Positions 44,610 through 64,000 of a stretch of DNA of 64,000 nucleotides are shown here, piece by piece. Every line of letters begins with the position of its first letter. Positions within the stretch are counted from its first letter, which is position 1. This DNA is from Sphingorhabdus sp. 109 (lineage in GTDB: Bacteria; Pseudomonadota; Alphaproteobacteria; Sphingomonadales; Sphingomonadaceae). The position numbers and the translations under genes are program-made. The stretch spans positions 3,365,899 through 3,429,898 of the forward strand of contig NZ_LR732707.1 of the NCBI RefSeq assembly GCF_902506555.1. Direction: 5' to 3'. The notes beneath the pieces are model-generated. The model did not search any database. It was not told the origin of the DNA and was given only the letters and a program-made list of their open reading frames with translations.

Positions 44610-46367
44610 CTAGCTGCGTACCAGTCTTCCGGGGCGCTCTCCCGTATCCTGGTCATTCTCGCGGATCATTACGCCGTTGCAAAATGTCGCCTTATAGCCG
44701 GTTATCGGCTGCATCAATCGCGTACCGCCTGCGGGCAGGTCATGGTGCGCCACGGGCGGGGCAACCGACAGATTTTGATAATCAATCACGTTGATATCTG
44801 CGCGCTTGCCCACCTCCAGCGACCCGCGATCATTAAATCCATAGAGCGCAGCATTGCGGGCGGTTTGCTTGTGAACCAGATATTCAACCGGAATTGTATT
44901 CCCTTTTTTGCGGTCTCTTGACCAGTAACTGAGTTGGGTCGACGGCATCGTCGCATCGCAAATCAGTGTCACATGAGCGCCGGCATCGCTAAGACCCGTG
45001 ACCGTATCGGGATGTGTCAGCATTTCGCCAATCACGTCAAGGCTTTCGGGCAGGTTCGCGCGACTGAAAGATGCAAATTGAGTGCCGTCGCCTTCGACCA
45101 TATAATCGTACAGATATTCTAGCGGTTCCTTATTTACCGCTTTTGCAAGATGACCGATCGAAGATTCTGGACCAGCCTCCAGATCGATAGGATTGGCCAT
45201 CGGATATAATATGTCGGCATTTTGCCGAAACAGACCCGCAACATGTTCCATCGACCCTGGAGCTTCATGAGGCACGGCCTTTTCAGACATGATGATCCGT
45301 TTCATCTCTGGATCCCGCATGGCTTTGGCCCGTTCGGCAATCGGCAACTTCGCCATTTTCTCCATATATGTCGGCGCGCGCATGAAGGCGTGATAGGAAC
45401 TCAGCCCATGCAAATAACCGATAATCCGGGATGGCACCTGGGGAAACAATTGCGCGCCTGCGGCATTAGCCTGATGAGTTTTTTCCAGCAGGTGGCGCCA
45501 TAGGTCCGGATAATAATCGCGAGTCTCAACCAGCGTGAATGTTACCGGTCGACCACTTTCCTCGGAACATCGTCTCAGTAACTCAAGCTCTTCTTCAGGC
45601 GCATTGCGCTCGCCGCCCAGCATGGCCAGTTCACCAACCGCTCCGGCGGGAATGGCTTCAATCACGCCCTTGCCAAGCTTTTTCATCCGGCGCGCGATCT
45701 CCAGCAATTCCTCGTCAGCGGCAAATGTTCCCGGAACCGGCTCTCCCCAAAGAGAACGATGCCCGATGGTGCGGGAAGTCGAGAAACCGACGGCACCTGC
45801 ATCGATAGCCTCTTCGACCAGCGTCGCTATATTGTTAATTTCCTCGGGCGTGGCATCTTCGTTTGTTCGGCCGCGTTCGCCCATGGCATAGTATCGGACG
45901 GCGCCATGGGCAATCTGGGCGCCGACATCAATCGCATATTCCCGCGATCCGATATAATCCATGTAATCGCCAAAACTTTCCCATTTGCCCCATTCTATGC
46001 CCTCGTAAAGTGCCGTGCCGGGAATGTCCTCGACGCCCTCCATGAGCTCGATCAGCGCCTGTTCTTCCCCGGGTCTGACCGGAGCAAAGCCAACGCCGCA
46101 ATTGCCCATGACGACGGTTGTCGTACCGTTGTGGGAAGACGGAGCAAGTTCATCGTCCCAGCTTACCTGCCCGTCATAATGGGTGTGAACGTCGACCCAG
46201 CCGGGGGTGACCATAGCGCCTTCGGCATCAATCGTGCGTTTGGCTTCGCCTTTTACCGAAGGGCCAACGGCGGATATCGTTCCACCGGTAATGGCAATGT
46301 CGCCGATATACGGAGCGCCGCCTAGACCGTCGACTATTTTGCCGCCGCGAATAATTACATCATACAT
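44610..46367 (-). CDS. N-acyl-D-amino-acid deacylase-like amidohydrolase (copy 1)
   Basis: 585 residues. It starts with the beta-sandwich [19 protein letters not shown]. The metal site HTH is at residues 61-63 (DVHTHYDGQ), the bridging-type Cys90 is in [10 protein letters not shown], and the catalytic Asp lies in [12 protein letters not shown]. This is the D-aminoacylase (amidohydrolase family 3) layout, longer than the 480-residue classical enzyme. It should hydrolyse an N-acyl or cyclic amide bond. It is paralogous to the protein at 52340-54094, colinear through most of its length. It ends the minus-strand series, downstream of ALDH 2. Confidence 0.85.
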
Positions 46368-52339: not shown

Positions 52340-54094
52340 CTAGCCGCGAAGCAGTTGCCCCGGTCTTGCGCCGGTGTCCCTGTCGTTTTCTCTGGTTTTG
52401 ACGCCATTTACGAAGGTTGCGATATAGCCTTTTGCCGGTTGTAATATGCGTTTGCCCCCGGCTGGAAGATCGGCATGAACCTCCAGGCCAAGCAGCTGCA
52501 GCTCTTCAAAATCTATGACATTGATGTCCGCACATTTGCCGACTTCCAGTGATCCCCTATCATGCAAGCCATAAAGCTGGGCGTTCTTGTAACTCTGCTT
52601 CTGCACGATAAACTCAAGCGGGATTCGTTGTCCCCGCGTTCGGTCGCGACTCCAGTGGGTCATTTGATAGGTCGGTGCCACACCGTCGAATATCAGGGTC
52701 ACATGCGCCCCAGCATCGCTAAGGCCTGTTACCGTTTCGGGATGCGACAGCATTTCATAGATCGCATCATGGTTATAGCTGCAGAAATTGCTGCTGAGCA
52801 TGATAGCAAAACGGGAACCGTCATCCTGAATCAGGAAATCATACATATATTCTTCATAGTCCTGATTTGCCCGTTTTGCCCGTTCCGCAAAACTCTTGTC
52901 GGGTGTCGGCTCATAGTCGATTGGATCTTCAATCTCGAACAGAACAGCGCCGGCAATCTTGAAAACCTCGTGCACGTTTTCCATCGTGCCTGGTAACTCC
53001 GGTTTGATGTTCCTGTCGGATAATATCGCCGCACGGACATCCGGTTTTTTCATTTCTGTCAACATTTCATCGAAAGGCAGTTCTGCCAGCCGCAGAAAGG
53101 TCTCGCGCCGTTGAAAGAGGTGGTAGGTCTTGAGGTTGGTTACCAACCCGATTGGGCGCGATGCGACTTGTGGATGAAGATTTGCGCCGTTCTGATTGGC
53201 GGTCGAGACCTGATCCAGTATTCGTCGCCACTCTTCTTGCGCCTCGGCATGCTGGAGCAGTGTGAACGTGACCGGTCTCCCGGTCGCTTTGGAAATCCGA
53301 GTCATCAGATCCAGTTCTTCTTCGGTGCTCCGCTGTTCGCCACCAAATTGTTCGAGATCGCCAATCACACCGGCCGGGATAAGTTCAAAAACTCCCTTAT
53401 CGAGCGACTTCATAGCGTCAGTGAGGGCAATCACCTCCTCTTCCGCAGCAAAGGTGCCAGGAATGGATACTCCTTTGGTCGACCGATGACCGATGGTGCG
53501 TGATGAGGAGAACCCGAGCGCACCTGCCTTCAGGCCTCCGGCTACAATGTCTCTCATTTTCGCAATGTCATCGGCCGTTGCCGGTTCATTGGTACGGCCA
53601 CGCTCGCCCATAACATAGTTGCGCACCGCAGCATGGGGAATCTGGGTCCCAATGTTCAGCGCATATTTACGGGAATCGATATAATCCAGATATTCGGGAA
53701 AAGTCTCCCAGGCTCCCCATTCTATGCCCTCGTAAAGGGCGGTGCCGGGTATGTCTTCAACGCCCTCCATCACTTCGATGAGATCACGTTCCCCACCGGG
53801 AGAGACGGGCGCAAACCCAACCCCGCAATTCCCCATAACGACCGATGTCACGCCGTGACTGGCCGACGGATTCATTTCGTCGTCCCAGCTGATCTGGCCG
53901 TCATAATGCGTGTGAATGTCGACAAAGCCGGGCGTCACTATTGCACCTGCGGCATTGAGAACTGCTTTGGCGTCGGCCACGATGGCGTCCCCCAGTTCGA
54001 CGATCAGCCCATCCTTGATACCGATATCGCCAATCCGGGGCGCGCCGCCCAGGCCATCGACTATCGTGCCGCCTTTTATCAGAGTGTCGAGCAT
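52340..54094 (-). CDS. N-acyl-D-amino-acid deacylase-like amidohydrolase (copy 2)
   Basis: 584 residues from ATG 54094, chosen because AAAGG sits 6 nt upstream; ATG 54100 and GTG 54115 are also in frame. It aligns from the first residue with copy 1: HTH at 61-63, [38 protein letters not shown] and [11 protein letters not shown] are in the same places. The two are clear paralogues, over half identical by eye. It should cleave an amide of related but not identical shape. It leads the run amidohydrolase-MFS-ligase. Confidence 0.86.
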   Translation of the reverse strand: MLDTLIKGGTIVDGLGGAPRIGDIGIKDGLIVELGDAIVADAKAVLNAAGAIVTPGFVDIHTHYDGQISWDDEMNPSASHGVTSVVMGNCGVGFAPVSPGGERDLIEVMEGVEDIPGTALYEGIEWGAWETFPEYLDYIDSRKYALNIGTQIPHAAVRNYVMGERGRTNEPATADDIAKMRDIVAGGLKAGALGFSSSRTIGHRSTKGVSIPGTFAAEEEVIALTDAMKSLDKGVFELIPAGVIGDLEQFGGEQRSTEEELDLMTRISKATGRPVTFTLLQHAEAQEEWRRILDQVSTANQNGANLHPQVASRPIGLVTNLKTYHLFQRRETFLRLAELPFDEMLTEMKKPDVRAAILSDRNIKPELPGTMENVHEVFKIAGAVLFEIEDPIDYEPTPDKSFAERAKRANQDYEEYMYDFLIQDDGSRFAIMLSSNFCSYNHDAIYEMLSHPETVTGLSDAGAHVTLIFDGVAPTYQMTHWSRDRTRGQRIPLEFIVQKQSYKNAQLYGLHDRGSLEVGKCADINVIDFEELQLLGLEVHADLPAGGKRILQPAKGYIATFVNGVKTRENDRDTGARPGQLLRG

Positions 54095-54161
54095 TTTCAT
54101 CCTTTCAATCCGCACTCAACCAACCGAAACCGATTACGGCCACCGGGCGGGAAAGCACGCG

Positions 54162-58433: not shown

Positions 58434-59459
58434 ATGCTGACTGACATTGAGAAAAGTCTGCCGTTGTGGGCGACTTCAAGCCTGCTGATATTGGCATTGT
58501 CCGGATGCGGGGGCGATGGATCGAGCAGTACGGACGCGTCGGTTACTTTGCCCGGAACATCGACGCCAACGCCGACCCCGACGCCAACTCCCACCCCGAC
58601 CCCGGACAGCGTCAGCACCGCCGATGTGGATTGCCCCTATAGCGGCAGCTATATGGGCGACTATAGCGATGCTGGCATGTTGACCGCGACGTGGAGCTGG
58701 ACCTGCGATGGAACAAATCGCAGCCTGACCGGAAATGGTTTACCCGATCATGGCGTTGGCACATTCCCCAACCCGGGCAATCCGAACACCATCACGACCC
58801 AGACTGTCAGCGGTTCGATGACGCTAACGCCAGTGATGGGCAGTGCTAATACCCAGATAGGAGGCCCGGGCGGAGCCTCGGCCTATGCCCGGAACAGTGT
58901 CAAATTTGATCCCGGAACGGGTGGCACTTGCGCAAGCGATATTGCCGCGACATCCGAGTGTGATCTGGGCGGGAATACCGGTCAGTGGCGGATCGAGGCA
59001 TTGGGGCAGGACACGTTTGATTTTGGCGAAGATGCCAACAATGCCCATGTGCAGCCCGGCGGCATCTATCACTATCACGGGATGCCCGAAGGGCTTCTGA
59101 CCAACGCAGGCGCTTCCGATAGCAACCGGAAAATGGTGTTGATCGGCTGGGCCGGCGACGGCTATCCGATCTACGGGCGCTATTGCTATGCCAGCGCCAT
59201 GGACGCGACCAGCGAACTGAAAGTCTGCACCGGCAGCTACATCAAGGATACGGTCGCCGATTCCGGCCGACCATCGACGAGCCTCGTGCCGCTCGGCGCG
59301 TTCCTCTCGGACTGGACCTATTCCGCGGGCTCGGGTGATCTCGACGATTGCAACGGCCGCACCGGCGTCACGCCGGAATTTCCGGACGGAATCTATTATT
59401 ATATGGCAACCGACAGCTACCCGTACATGAGCCGCTGTCTGAAAGGGAATATCAACTGA
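58434..59459 (+). CDS. YHYH-domain lipoprotein
   Basis: 341 residues from ATG 58434. The lipoprotein signal ends at LALSGC (Cys25). A Thr-Pro repeat linker lies at residues 44-57, encoded by a simple-sequence tract near 58560-58605. The YHYH domain follows: LTGNGLPDHGVGTFPNPGNPN, HVQPGGIYHYHGMPEG (YHYH at 212-215), LIGWAGDGYPIYGRY, and GDLDDCNGRTGVTPEFPDGIYYY. Eight cysteines outside the signal suggest disulfides and an extracytoplasmic place. The family's function is unknown. It heads a five-gene run. Confidence 0.85.
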   Translation: MLTDIEKSLPLWATSSLLILALSGCGGDGSSSTDASVTLPGTSTPTPTPTPTPTPTPDSVSTADVDCPYSGSYMGDYSDAGMLTATWSWTCDGTNRSLTGNGLPDHGVGTFPNPGNPNTITTQTVSGSMTLTPVMGSANTQIGGPGGASAYARNSVKFDPGTGGTCASDIAATSECDLGGNTGQWRIEALGQDTFDFGEDANNAHVQPGGIYHYHGMPEGLLTNAGASDSNRKMVLIGWAGDGYPIYGRYCYASAMDATSELKVCTGSYIKDTVADSGRPSTSLVPLGAFLSDWTYSAGSGDLDDCNGRTGVTPEFPDGIYYYMATDSYPYMSRCLKGNIN

Positions 59460-59460
59460 T

Positions 59461-59766
59461 ATGAAACATGTGAACCAGACGACATTTGGCATCGCCTGTA
59501 TGAGCGCGGCGGCAGCGCTGGCGCTGTTCGGCGCAACCCAGATCAATGCCCAGCGCGATCAGGATCGCGGGCCTCCAGGTGGCGGCAAAAAGCCGACCGA
59601 AGCGATGCTCAAGGCCTGTACCGCAAAAAAGGCCAATGATGCCTGCTCCGCGGAAGGTCCGGATGGCAATGTCGTGGCCGGCAGCTGCTTTGCACCGGCC
59701 GACCTGCCACTAGCCTGCCGGCCCGCTGGCAGGCCGGCGCGAGGAACGGGGCCCGAGGGTCAATGA
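59461..59766 (+). CDS. Small exported four-cysteine protein
   Basis: 101 residues with a signal-like helix (about 9-30). A conserved core has cysteines at 53, 62, 76 and 86 in KACTAKKANDACSAEG and VVAGSCFAPADLPLACRP. The next protein carries the same core, with the cysteines at the same residue numbers, in front of its YHYH domain, so this gene is a free copy of that domain. It begins 1 nt after the first YHYH gene and overlaps the next by 4 nt. Function unknown. Confidence 0.75.
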   Translation: MKHVNQTTFGIACMSAAAALALFGATQINAQRDQDRGPPGGGKKPTEAMLKACTAKKANDACSAEGPDGNVVAGSCFAPADLPLACRPAGRPARGTGPEGQ

Positions 59767-61022
59767 TACAGAAGCGGCGCGCAGCGCTCGGCACGGTGGT
59801 CGTTGGCGCCACGACGGCGCTGGTCATGCTCGGAGCGGTGCAGATCAATGCGCAAAGCGGCCCGGATCGGGGCCCGCCTGGTGGTGGTCAGAAACCCAGC
59901 GAGGCAATGCTCAAGGCCTGCTCTGCCAAACAGGCCGACGATCCCTGCTCGACGGAGGGGCCTGAAGGCAAGGATGTCGCGGGCAGCTGCTTTGCACCGG
60001 CCGGCATGCCACTGGCCTGCCGCCCATCAGGCGGTGCCATGGGGCCCGCCAATCGTCCGCCACAGGGGCAATCCAATCTCGGTACGCCGATTGAATCGAC
60101 CCGGGCCCAGACTTTCGGTGTGCTTTGCGGCGCGCATACCGATATCCCGAACGAGCAAATAGGCCTGCAGAGTGAAGCCAAATGGTCGTGCGAACGTGGC
60201 CAGCGCTTGCTGGTGTCAAATGGTATACCCGATCATGCGATTGGTGTTTTCCCCAATCCGGGAAATCCGAACAGCATCAGTGTACAATCGTTCAACTTTG
60301 CTGTTACGGTCGAGCCGGTGGGGCATACCGGCAGCGGCATCCGGGTCAAGGATTCCGGCTTCGCGCTCAATGGCGTGCCGTTCGATCCGGGAACCGCCGA
60401 GCGCTGCCCCGACGGAGCGACTGATGCGCAGGACTGCAGAGGGCAGGCCGGCAAATGGAGCATCGAGGCACTGGGCCAGTCTGTCTTCGACTTTGGCACG
60501 GACGAAAACCACGCTCACGTCCAGCCGGGTGGCAAATATCATTATCACGGTATTCCCGAAGCGATGCTGTCCGCGCAGACGCGCATGGGAAAATCGATGC
60601 AGCTGATCGGCTGGGCTGCTGACGGATTTCCGATCTATGCGCGCTACGGCCATGATCTGGCAAAGTTCATGACCAGTGCGCTGCGGCCGATGAAGTCGAG
60701 CTATCGCCTGAAGCCGGCGGCTGATGCAGGGCGTCCGAGTACGGCAATTATAGCGATGGGCGCCTTTACCCAGGACTATGAATATGTCGCCGGTCTCGGC
60801 GATCTCGACGAATGTAATGGCCGCTTCGGTGTTACACCCGAATTTCCCGAAGGCATTTATCATTATTATGCGACCGACAGTTTCCCCTTCGTCCAGCGAT
60901 GTGTGAAAGGTTCCACTGACAGTCAGCCGACAGCCCGTCGCGAGCAGCAGCGCGGCGAAGGCGGCGGGAGACGCGGCAAGGGGAACGGAAAGCGTCCGCC
61001 GCGGGGAGAAGGCAGACGATGA
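59763..61022 (+). CDS. YHYH-domain protein with N-terminal four-cysteine domain
   Basis: 419 residues. A signal anchor (9-30) leads into the four-cysteine core (Cys53, 62, 76, 86) and then the YHYH domain: VSNGIPDHAIGVFPNPGNPN, HAHVQPGGKYHYHGIPEAM (YHYH at 259-262), LIGWAADGFPIYARYG and GDLDECNGRFGVTPEFPEGIYHYYATDSFPF. The C-terminal tail (about 385-419) is strongly basic and Gly/Arg-rich (RRGKGNGKRPPRGEGRR). It overlaps both neighbours by 4 nt. It is paralogous to the first YHYH protein. Confidence 0.85.
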   Translation: MIQKRRAALGTVVVGATTALVMLGAVQINAQSGPDRGPPGGGQKPSEAMLKACSAKQADDPCSTEGPEGKDVAGSCFAPAGMPLACRPSGGAMGPANRPPQGQSNLGTPIESTRAQTFGVLCGAHTDIPNEQIGLQSEAKWSCERGQRLLVSNGIPDHAIGVFPNPGNPNSISVQSFNFAVTVEPVGHTGSGIRVKDSGFALNGVPFDPGTAERCPDGATDAQDCRGQAGKWSIEALGQSVFDFGTDENHAHVQPGGKYHYHGIPEAMLSAQTRMGKSMQLIGWAADGFPIYARYGHDLAKFMTSALRPMKSSYRLKPAADAGRPSTAIIAMGAFTQDYEYVAGLGDLDECNGRFGVTPEFPEGIYHYYATDSFPFVQRCVKGSTDSQPTARREQQRGEGGGRRGKGNGKRPPRGEGRR

Positions 61023-62098
61023 AGCGCCTGTTGCTGGCGTTCTGGTTGCTGCTTTTTGCCGGAACCGCGCAGGCCCATCTGTTGCCGAAGCAGAATGCGA
61101 CGATGAAAATCGTCGACAATAGCGCCAATTTTGTTGTGTCTGTTCCGGTTTCGGCCCTGGACAATGTCGACGATGATCAGAACGGGCTGCTATCCGCCCG
61201 GGAAATCCGGCTGCACAACCGGGATATCGAAAGGCAATTTGCCGAACGTTTCGGCGTCACAAATTCCGGCAAGTCCGGCAATGTGTTGATGACATGGGTT
61301 GTGCCGCCCCAGACCGATGGAGACCCGCTGGACAGCGACTATGTGGTTATATTGCACCGCGTGCAGTTTGATGAGCCGCCTCATAATCCGCTGATCGAAA
61401 CCGACATGTTCGGCACTCGTGACGGCGAAGCGCAAATGACGATGCGCGCCACCTTGGATGATGATCAGGAAGTTGCGATTCTTACGGCAGCCAGTGGCAG
61501 ACACCAGTTCTTCCGCGGACCACTGGCGCTATTCGGTGATTTTGTCCGGCTGGGAATTGAGCATATTCTCGGCGGGCTTGATCATTTGCTATTCCTGCTC
61601 ACGATCATTATCGCCGGCGCTGGCTGGCGCTACTGGCTCACTGTGGTGACAAGCTTCACGGTTGCCCACAGCATCACCCTGTCTCTGTCTGCACTGGGCA
61701 TATTCTCCATACCTGCGACAATCGTCGAACCGGCCATTGCTGCCAGCATCATATTGATGGCGGTCCTCAACCTGAAAAATGGCCCTGGTCGCAGCGACCG
61801 GATGGACTGGGGCAGAATAGCCATCGTGTTCGCATGCGGACTGATTCACGGTTTTGGCTTTGCGTCTGCTATAGGCGGGATGCTGGCCGCGAGTGAAAGC
61901 CTATTGGCGACGCTGGCAGGATTCAATATAGGTATCGAGATCGGTCAGTTTCTCTTTCTGACCGGTGTCCTGTTGATCATCCTAACCGTCCGCAAAACCG
62001 GCTTTGGTGATCGGATCCATCTCGTGCCGCATCTGGCATCGTGGATCGCGCTGGTTGCCGGCACGCTGCTCTTCATGCGCCAGACCGAAATGATATGA
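61019..62098 (+). CDS. HupE/UreJ-family membrane protein with extracytoplasmic N-terminal domain
   Basis: 359 residues. A cleaved signal (MKRLLLAFWLLLFAGTAQA) precedes a soluble domain of about 150 residues, which contains an EF-hand-like loop at residues 51-62 (DDDQNGLLSARE; positions 1, 3, 5, 6 and 12 fit). Six or seven helices then carry the HupE/UreJ_2 motifs GIEHILGGLDHLLFLLTIII, TVAHSITLSLSALGI, and CGLIHGFGFASAIGGM, with metal-type histidines. HupE and UreJ proteins are nickel or cobalt permeases; in this longer form the metal is not known. Coupled to the preceding gene by ATGA. Confidence 0.82.
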   Translation: MKRLLLAFWLLLFAGTAQAHLLPKQNATMKIVDNSANFVVSVPVSALDNVDDDQNGLLSAREIRLHNRDIERQFAERFGVTNSGKSGNVLMTWVVPPQTDGDPLDSDYVVILHRVQFDEPPHNPLIETDMFGTRDGEAQMTMRATLDDDQEVAILTAASGRHQFFRGPLALFGDFVRLGIEHILGGLDHLLFLLTIIIAGAGWRYWLTVVTSFTVAHSITLSLSALGIFSIPATIVEPAIAASIILMAVLNLKNGPGRSDRMDWGRIAIVFACGLIHGFGFASAIGGMLAASESLLATLAGFNIGIEIGQFLFLTGVLLIILTVRKTGFGDRIHLVPHLASWIALVAGTLLFMRQTEMI

Positions 62099-62131
62099 AA
62101 GGGCTGGTGCCATCCGGGGGGCGACATTTAA

Positions 62132-63238
62132 ATGGGAAAATATCGGGGCCAAATGATCAGGAACACGCTGCTATTGTCGATATCGTTGCTGCTGGGATCA
62201 TGCGGTGCCAATCCTCCGGCACCGACGGATATCGCGCCGGTTGATCTGGCTGCGCTTTCCGCCGCCGAGCGGGATAGTTATCTGCGGGAAGCTACAGCCT
62301 TTTTCGAAAAGGCCAATATTGTCGGTTCGCCCTCGCTCGTCGAATGCACCCTGTCCGGAGGCGCGAAAACGACCTGTTTTTCAATCACCGTGAAGCCTGT
62401 CCCCGGCGATTACACGCCAGGCCCCTGGTGCCCGCGCAACATCAGCGATGGCAAGGAGAAGTCCGGCATCTGGTTGGATGAAGGCAAGATTTACGATGCC
62501 GACGGAAAGTTCCTGCAGAATTTAAGCGACTTTTACGAGGACGATGAATGGCAACTCTTCGATCCCGCGACTGGTCGCGTCAACGTCACTGACAGCAAGG
62601 AAAAATGCGCGGCTGCGGCAAGGCCTGATGTGGACGAAAAATATAATAATTACTGTGTCGAATGCCAGCTCGACTATATGCCGGCGGAGAGCAGCGTTAC
62701 CTATGTCATTCCCGTAAGACCTGTCGCATCAAGCAACCGTTCGCGCACGCATGGCGGAGCGGGTGTAGCGATAAACGGTATCCGTCTGGATGAACCGGCT
62801 CCTCTCGATGCCATTCTGGATGCGCACACGCTTGCGCCGTTCGATGATTGTGGTGGTCATGTCAATCTGCATGTCGGTTATCACTATCATGCGGTGACGG
62901 ACTGTCTTGTCGACAAGTCGGGCCGGACCTCCGGCAAATATGATGCACCGGTGATCGGGTTGGCGATGGATGGATACAAGATATTGGCGCACAGGCTCGA
63001 CAACGGAGAGCTGCCCGGGCAGCTCGATAGTTGTCAGGGGCACAGTAGCGCCGAATATGGGTATCATTATCACGCGGGTGCTGCGGGTTCCAACCGGATA
63101 CTCGCCTGCCTATCCGGCCAGCAGGGATGCTCGTTCGAGAGCAGCGGTGAAACTTGTGACGCGTCTGTCCGGCGTGGTCCCCCGGGTGGCGGAGGTCCGC
63201 CTCCGGGTGCGACCCGGCCTCCGCCAGAACCCGGCTGA
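62132..63238 (+). CDS. Lipoprotein with two YHYH motifs
   Basis: 368 residues from ATG 62132; ATG 62153 would give a cleaner lipoprotein signal (MIRNTLLLSISLLLGSC). The lipid Cys is in LLGSC. The middle region has many cysteines. Two YHYH motifs occur at 250-253 (HVNLHVGYHYHAVTDC) and 311-314 (EYGYHYHAGAAG), separated by VIGLAMDGYKILAH, the counterpart of GWAGDGYPIYGRY. The end is Gly/Pro-rich. It is a diverged relative of the two other YHYH proteins and the last gene of the run. Confidence 0.78.
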   Translation: MGKYRGQMIRNTLLLSISLLLGSCGANPPAPTDIAPVDLAALSAAERDSYLREATAFFEKANIVGSPSLVECTLSGGAKTTCFSITVKPVPGDYTPGPWCPRNISDGKEKSGIWLDEGKIYDADGKFLQNLSDFYEDDEWQLFDPATGRVNVTDSKEKCAAAARPDVDEKYNNYCVECQLDYMPAESSVTYVIPVRPVASSNRSRTHGGAGVAINGIRLDEPAPLDAILDAHTLAPFDDCGGHVNLHVGYHYHAVTDCLVDKSGRTSGKYDAPVIGLAMDGYKILAHRLDNGELPGQLDSCQGHSSAEYGYHYHAGAAGSNRILACLSGQQGCSFESSGETCDASVRRGPPGGGGPPPGATRPPPEPG

Positions 63239-63264
63239 ACATCGGGCGCGGGGCTGCCAGTCGG

Positions 63265-63948
63265 CTAGCCGCCTTCGAAACGATAGCCGGCACCGTAAAC
63301 CGAGGTGATGCAGCCGGCGTCGGGATCGACTGCCGCAATCTTGCGGCGGATATTCTTGATATGGCTGTCGATCGCCCGGTCGCCCGAACTCAAGGACTGT
63401 TCGCCGATCTTGTCGAGCAATTGATCCCGGGAAAATACCCGGCCCGCATTCTGCATCATTGCCGATAATATGTGATATTCGGATATTGACAGCTTCAGCC
63501 AAGTTCCCTGCCAGGCGATCCGCTGTCCGGCGCTGTCCACCAGATATTTGCTGGCTGCGGGATCGCTGGTTACCCGGCCCTCATATCTGCGGATCAGCGC
63601 GTTCACCCGCGTGACAACTTCCCTTGCGCTAAAGGGCTTGGTGACATAATCATCCGCACCGTCGGTCAGACCTTGCAGCTTGTCCATCTCGTCGGTCCGT
63701 GCGGTCAGCATCAGGATGGGCACGGCGCTGAACTTGCGCAACTCCCGGCAAATCGTCATGCCATCGGAGGCCGGTAACATGAGATCCAGTACAACCGCGC
63801 TGGGCGGGGATGACCGGACGGAAGAAACCACCGAGCGGCCATCGGGAAAAGTTTGCGGATGGTGGCCTGCGCTGCAGAAATAGTCGGACAATATTGCGGC
63901 GATCTTGTGATCATCCTCGACGATGAAAATGCTGCGGTTCTTGATCAT
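63265..63948 (-). CDS. OmpR/PhoB-type response regulator
   Basis: 227 residues. The receiver has the acidic pair ED at 11-12, phosphoacceptor Asp55 (VVLDLMLPASDG) and Lys104 (YVTKPFS). The winged-helix DNA-binding domain follows (about 128-227) with SISEYHILSAMMQNAGRVFSRDQLLDKI and the DNA helix AIDSHIKNIRRKI. It converges on the YHYH run, 26 bp apart. Its start overlaps the stop of the sensor kinase gene by ATGA. The pair may control the neighbouring locus, but no binding site was identified. Confidence 0.93.
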   Translation of the reverse strand: MIKNRSIFIVEDDHKIAAILSDYFCSAGHHPQTFPDGRSVVSSVRSSPPSAVVLDLMLPASDGMTICRELRKFSAVPILMLTARTDEMDKLQGLTDGADDYVTKPFSAREVVTRVNALIRRYEGRVTSDPAASKYLVDSAGQRIAWQGTWLKLSISEYHILSAMMQNAGRVFSRDQLLDKIGEQSLSSGDRAIDSHIKNIRRKIAAVDPDAGCITSVYGAGYRFEGG

Positions 63949-64000
63949 GGTTGGTGCCGCTCCTGTGGCAGGTTCAGTTCAATCGATAATCCCCCCAGTC
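63945..64000 (-). CDS. Sensor histidine kinase, C-terminal end only
   Basis: The last 17 codons of a minus-strand gene, ending LGGLSIELNLPQERHQP, overlap the response regulator start. GGLSIELNLP is the usual ending of the kinase ATP-binding domain. The rest lies beyond the window. Confidence 0.6.
   Translation of the reverse strand, partial: LGGLSIELNLPQERHQP

Follow-up and report, generated by a model that had tools for sequence, protein, structure and literature searches.

Exported domains that are joined to a HupE/UreJ-2 permease were described in 2025 under the name anglerases (Franco Cairo et al., PMC12537917). The Ang-1 domain binds Cu2+ with a dissociation constant (Kd) of 73.6 nM and Ni2+ with a Kd of 220 nM. 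A copper site at His1 has been solved for RbAng-1a (PDB 9gce), its second copper ligand being Asn41, a residue that is not highly conserved, and anglerases are proposed to feed the HupE/UreJ-2 permease. For YHYH proteins, no experimentally tested function was found in the literature searched. A Zn site of three His and one Asp is predicted for YHYH in PMC7824862, along with a hydrolase activity, because YHYH occurs on phage tail proteins; PMC7029224 places phage YHYH among carbohydrate-binding and host-recognition domains. Here we analyze a locus in which the two kinds of protein meet. It lies at the end of a 64,000-nucleotide stretch of the Sphingorhabdus sp. 109 genome (the window), in which a gene for an anglerase-like domain fused to a permease directly follows a YHYH gene.

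The exported domain encoded in the window resembles Ang-1 (9gce) in having a His at mature position 1 and a beta-sandwich whose helices come after the second strand, and, as in the published Ang-1 proteins, it is followed by a C-terminal HupE/UreJ-2 permease. It differs in being paired with YHYH and, in gammaproteobacteria, in occurring without a permease, and it is related to Ang-1 by fold only. Two zinc-binding proteins, ZrgA (8f1b) and PA4063 (7bgo), are similar to the exported domain in predicted fold, a likeness by fold alone. YHYH domains in the tail and structural proteins of phages (PMC7824862, PMC7029224, and cyanophage records) are like those studied here in sequence and predicted fold, but they are described as virion-associated. 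YcnI and YcnJ of Bacillus subtilis (PMC12154828), which are encoded together in an operon and exchange Cu(II), offer an analogy only. In the literature searched, the word anglerase was found in PMC12537917 only and no paper mentions YHYH together with HupE; the available main text of PMC12537917 contains neither YHYH nor EF-hand. An earlier prediction, made from the letters of the window, had presented the locus as a possible undescribed metal- or thiol-handling system. Since the exported metal domain and its permease were published in 2025 (PMC12537917), the HupE half is not new. What is new is the pairing of the anglerase-like domain with one YHYH subfamily.

An anglerase-like domain paired with one YHYH subfamily

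Relatives of the second YHYH protein of the window (YHYH2) were drawn from a collection holding one genome per species. The best 80 of at least 574 confirmed candidates were analyzed and are thus nearest relatives by design, many of them from draft assemblies or metagenome bins. An anglerase-like gene lies directly after the YHYH gene in 73 of these 80 loci: 71 were found by script, and L072 and L090 were added by eye, an overlapping reading-frame start having hidden both. One of the 73 (L087) rests on a weak 31-bit match. By recorded class, the pairs belong to Alphaproteobacteria (13), Betaproteobacteria (18), Gammaproteobacteria (36), Deltaproteobacteria (2), Myxococcia (2), Deinococci (1), and an unassigned genome (1), and they span Pseudomonadota, Myxococcota, and Deinococcota; a Deinococcus plasmid record has the pair too. 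No open frame in the locus tables examined contains both a YHYH and an anglerase-like domain.

The same partner was found at none of 40 control loci of other YHYH proteins. The controls came from draws made independently of the partner, in which YHYH occurred in 25 of 240 genomes of the class and 18 of 299 of the phylum, with the window's genome in both. They leave out G334, G668, G630, and two further places in G698, and one of them (L134) ends about 420 nt downstream of YHYH. A locus outside the 40 (L021 of G040) lacks the partner as well. The recurrent YHYH-HupE linkage foreseen by the original prediction therefore holds among the nearest relatives of YHYH2 and fails for other YHYH subfamilies; a general association of YHYH with HupE was considered and ruled out. 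A quick tree of 132 YHYH domains, with long branches, needed 7 label changes, the mean for shuffled labels being 40.

Whole families gave a second view of the pairing. Within the window's own family, YHYH occurs in 5 of 199 genomes, and the pair occurs in two of them, the window's and G118. Among 196 genomes from the family of a Pseudoalteromonas genome, 78 have YHYH of some kind. Fourteen have YHYH matches above 220 bits, the next match being at 183 bits, and an anglerase-like domain is present in 18 at an expectation (E) value of 0.001 or less and in 14 at 165 bits or higher; the matches in three further genomes are weak, at 22 to 29 bits. The 14 high-scoring YHYH genomes are the 14 high-scoring anglerase genomes, and the two genes are adjacent in all of them, several being close relatives of one another or recurring among the best 80 (kinship was left uncorrected).

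The exported domain, its optional permease, and the YHYH histidines

The HupE protein of the window consists of an exported N-terminal domain joined to a membrane permease. Its mature N-terminal His directly follows AQA, the cleavage site being predicted from this pattern; an EF-hand-like loop occupies mature positions 32-43, and the membrane part has H182-x5-D188-H189. The structure model, predicted from 38 aligned relatives (mean predicted local distance difference test score, pLDDT, 92.3), shows an exported domain rich in beta strands and a membrane part made of helices. The exported domain is modeled as an immunoglobulin-like beta-sandwich in which helices separate strands 2 and 3, as in Ang-1. 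A Foldseek search with this model returned as its top match 9gce, the Cu-bound Ang-1 domain (E value 5e-5, template modeling score 0.56 by target length), followed by PA4063 and ZrgA, and the link of the exported domain to 9gce comes from this fold search only. The metal-binding character that the original prediction gave to the HupE part agrees with this resemblance to a solved copper-bound domain.

Motifs were counted in anglerase-like domains of at least 90 bits, permease parts of at least 150 bits, and cassette-type YHYH domains of at least 400 bits, which left out weaker or split sequences such as L087, L031, part of L022, and L088. A His at mature position 1 (within two residues, as scored by script) is present in 73 of 74 anglerase-like domains, the sole exception being L066, which has a doubtful start, and an AxA/H-like signal end directly precedes the His in 72 of 74. 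The canonical EF-hand loop D.[DNS].[DNS]G.{5}E occurs in 63 of 74, and E43 of the loop is invariant in the alignments. The domain profile matches the EF-hand loops of calcium sensors and calmodulin (best E value 5e-7); the window's protein has no Pfam EF-hand match at E values up to 0.1, and two relatives score 16.6 and 15.9 bits, both under the cut-offs. The EF-hand-like loop of the original prediction thus stands at the profile level and not as a Pfam match. HX5DH, a motif important in the membrane part of HupE_UreJ_2 proteins, is found in all 33 permease parts.

The permease is fused to the domain in 10 of 13 alphaproteobacterial and 17 of 18 betaproteobacterial pairs, in both myxococcal pairs, and in the single deinococcal and unassigned pairs. 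It is fused in neither of the two deltaproteobacterial pairs and in none of the 36 gammaproteobacterial pairs, two of which (L063 and L071) are truncated at a contig end. The gene of the gammaproteobacterial loci stops after the exported domain, with no permease match elsewhere in the locus; the idea that these genes encode short permeases was rejected by alignment, which shows the exported domain alone. Four of the 17 gammaproteobacterial genomes with a free domain have no HupE_UreJ_2 match anywhere; these are drafts, in which some may have been missed (G898 is scored as having none, G879, with similar-looking matches, as having one). The conserved unit is the periplasmic YHYH-anglerase pair, and the fused importer is optional. 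With the fused permease missing from the gammaproteobacterial pairs and the exported domain as the constant partner, uptake is unlikely as the core role, and the proposal that the products pass metal inward was not upheld as a core function.

On the YHYH side, D-x4-H-x6-YHYH is present in 82 of 82 cassette-type domains. Among 50 other YHYH domains, the YHYH motif itself is present in 47, the upstream H in 39, and the upstream D in 39. The cassette-type domain of YHYH2 has D247, H252, Y259-H262, D287, C351, and C380. Its model (mean pLDDT 87.1) places H252 on one short strand, H260 on the next, and H262 just after, a predicted arrangement consistent with one shared site, the kind of histidine site for which the original prediction suggested looking. 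Cyanophage YHYH proteins have the same predicted fold, and YHYH occurs in 452 phage records. On a Loktanella plasmid (L016:7938-11360), two YHYH genes flank two genes of the PEBP family, with no HupE among the annotated genes, and at L022:6848-7876 the first YHYH gene lies in two reading frames, possibly through a frameshift, the second copy being intact.

A candidate metal-exchange pair and its alternatives

A reading that we judge to be evenly poised is that the unit is a periplasmic metal-handling pair, in which the anglerase-like domain exchanges metal with a D/H/H/H site on YHYH. The anglerase-like domain would bind a transition metal through its N-terminal His; we infer that this would most likely be copper, as Cu2+, with Ni2+ as the next candidate. 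The metal would then be exchanged, in a direction that may be loading or emptying, between this domain and the D/H/H/H site of its YHYH partner. Fusion of the domain to a HupE-type permease, as in the lineage of the window, could also let the metal cross the inner membrane, and the gammaproteobacterial pair would do without such a fusion. In some lineages the genes are probably controlled by a related two-component system. A bolder form, which we hold as tentative and rather doubtful, makes YHYH a new class of exported metalloprotein whose D/H/H/H site is loaded or emptied by an anglerase with an N-terminal His, the permease being gained or lost by lineage. If this were true, the YHYH-anglerase pair would be a periplasmic metal-trafficking module common to several phyla, and the D/H/H/H site would also explain YHYH domains on phage tails. 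A near-constant partner similar to a copper-binding domain whose structure is known gives a first concrete and testable lead on YHYH, and it makes the anglerase domain more than a permease appendage.

Several observations weigh against metal exchange by the pair. Seven of the 80 loci lack the partner, with no trace of it in six frames at E values up to 0.1. Anglerase-like domains also occur away from YHYH: G799, one of the 14 gammaproteobacterial genomes above, has a second, YHYH-free one (142 bits, L160:7360-7902, minus strand), G745 has a truncated one (L161, 63 bits) with no YHYH nearby, and L162 and L163 carry a more distant, permease-fused form, likewise with no YHYH nearby. Given these last two, it is the near domain subtype, not every anglerase, that goes with YHYH. 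The 9gce structure is absent from the sequence-search results, with no match at E values up to 1 and none among the matches listed. No solved relative of YHYH was found by fold at an E value of 0.001 or less or by profile at E values up to 1; a single-sequence search gave chance-level matches only, and we found no metal-binding result for any YHYH protein. A HupE_UreJ_2 gene is present elsewhere in 13 of the 17 genomes with a free domain and could still bring metal in. As for regulation, the sensor domains of 25 aligned kinases (one without residues in that region) have no conserved His or Cys, that of the window kinase being proline-rich, so a role of the kinase as a direct metal sensor is unproven. 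In the window and in four relative loci, no riboswitch reached the gathering threshold. The second domain of G799 stands alone in a 15.5-kb stretch with no YHYH match and has both His1 and the EF-hand-like loop.

The alternative that survives best, which we consider unlikely overall, casts YHYH as a secreted, metal-dependent envelope hydrolase, with the anglerase-like domain as its metal-loading chaperone or calcium-gated regulator and the permease fusion as a side branch. Such an enzyme would accord with the Zn site and hydrolase activity predicted in PMC7824862, with a YHYH fold common to cyanophage proteins, with the frequency of pairs that have no fused permease, and with the presence of three YHYH copies per one anglerase-like protein in the window. 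No YHYH activity or substrate appears in the literature searched, in which PMC7824862 and PMC7029224 seem on-topic by title, and since the other YHYH subfamilies are partner-free at all 40 loci, a chaperone of this kind is not generally needed.

An uptake system for nickel or cobalt, as the HupE/UreJ name would have it, is improbable. Neither a [NiFe] hydrogenase large subunit nor a urease alpha subunit was found in the window's genome, the two Ni/Co enzymes searched for, which weakens a nickel-supply role, and the 36 gammaproteobacterial pairs have no permease to serve uptake. These results outweigh, in our judgment, the match of the window's protein to PF13795 and, barely above the cut-off, to PF04955, the fully conserved HX5DH motif, and the binding of Ni2+ by Ang-1 (PMC12537917). 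Least probable of all are calcium- or surface-related adhesion or matrix proteins unrelated to transition metals, to which the EF-hand-like loop with its invariant E43 and the grouping of phage YHYH with carbohydrate-binding and host-recognition domains (PMC7029224) would point, because calcium binding does not require the almost invariant N-terminal His, which serves as the copper ligand in the solved relative (PMC12537917).

Gene run, two-component system, and neighboring genes

All of the genes named in the original prediction (three YHYH genes, a four-Cys protein, a HupE/UreJ-type gene, and a two-component system) are present at the locus (Table 1). The plus-strand run has four junctions. 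Two are the 4-nt overlaps by which the whole run had been said to be joined, and the other two leave gaps of 1 and 33 nt. The sensor-regulator pair does face the run from the other strand: the ends of YHYH3 and of the regulator gene lie 26 nt apart, which makes the two runs convergent.

Table 1. Genes of the Sphingorhabdus locus, in window coordinates
Feature	Position	Strand	Description
YHYH1	58434-59459	+	341 aa; PF14240 208.8 bits (cut-off 25); lipobox-like signal LALSGC by eye
Four-Cys small exported protein (C4)	59461-59766	+	101 aa; no Pfam match
YHYH2	59763-61022	+	419 aa; PF14240 218.4 bits; signal, C4 domain, cassette-type YHYH domain
Anglerase-like domain + HupE_UreJ_2 permease	61019-62098	+	359 aa; PF13795 144.6 bits (cut-off 24.5)
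YHYH3	62132-63238	+	368 aa; diverged; PF14240 47.3 bits; lipobox-like signal by eye
OmpR-family response regulator	63265-63948	-	Receiver + Trans_reg_C
HAMP histidine kinase, 3' end	63945-64000	-	Remainder beyond window, L004:7844-9334; HAMP, HisKA, HATPase

YHYH1 has a cassette-type domain with D-x4-H-x6-YHYH, and its Pro-Thr linker is encoded by a short tandem repeat (window 58561-58600). The PF14240 match of YHYH3 spans profile positions 2-110 of 193 only. The C4 domain of the separate 101-aa protein is repeated as the N-terminus of YHYH2. Across the 80 loci this domain was found in 17, with seven cases of a YHYH N-terminus and ten of a stand-alone gene; three stand-alone copies that were tested match no Pfam family at E values up to 0.01. 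A MipA-like outer-membrane gene is present in seven loci, and all three tested match Pfam MipA. A genome search found no YHYH gene beyond YHYH1-3 in the window's genome, which has one further HupE_UreJ_2 gene (C2:2869035-2869490, L145). By eye, both the N-terminal His and the EF-hand-like loop are missing from the exported part of the L145 protein.

The best NCBIfam row for the window regulator is BaeR (240 bits, under the cut-off of 380). A related two-component system is encoded no more than 6 kb away in 15 of the 45 loci that have at least 5 kb on both sides, as counted with kinase and regulator profiles built from the same loci, which lends support to the link with an OmpR-type regulator drawn in the original prediction. 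By class, it is present in 8 of 11 alphaproteobacterial, 3 of 6 betaproteobacterial, 4 of 27 gammaproteobacterial, and 0 of 1 deltaproteobacterial loci. It is present at 2 of the 40 other YHYH loci, the 5-kb flank rule having been applied to the 80 only. The window kinase aligns over nearly its full length with 17 alpha- and betaproteobacterial kinases at 37 to 52% identity, and partly with three more, and the window regulator is 46 to 69% identical to those of the alpha- and betaproteobacterial loci; kinases of the Colwellia-type loci share only 26 to 28% identity with the window kinase. Alphaproteobacterial loci are convergent and most betaproteobacterial loci divergent, L077 being convergent.

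Elsewhere in the window, two similar amidohydrolase-like proteins are encoded at 44610-46367 and 52340-54115, in a stretch shared with dehydrogenase, CoA-ligase-like, and transporter genes. Directly past the kinase, at L004:9626-15929, lie two large TonB-dependent-receptor-like genes. All of these neighboring genes were named by eye.

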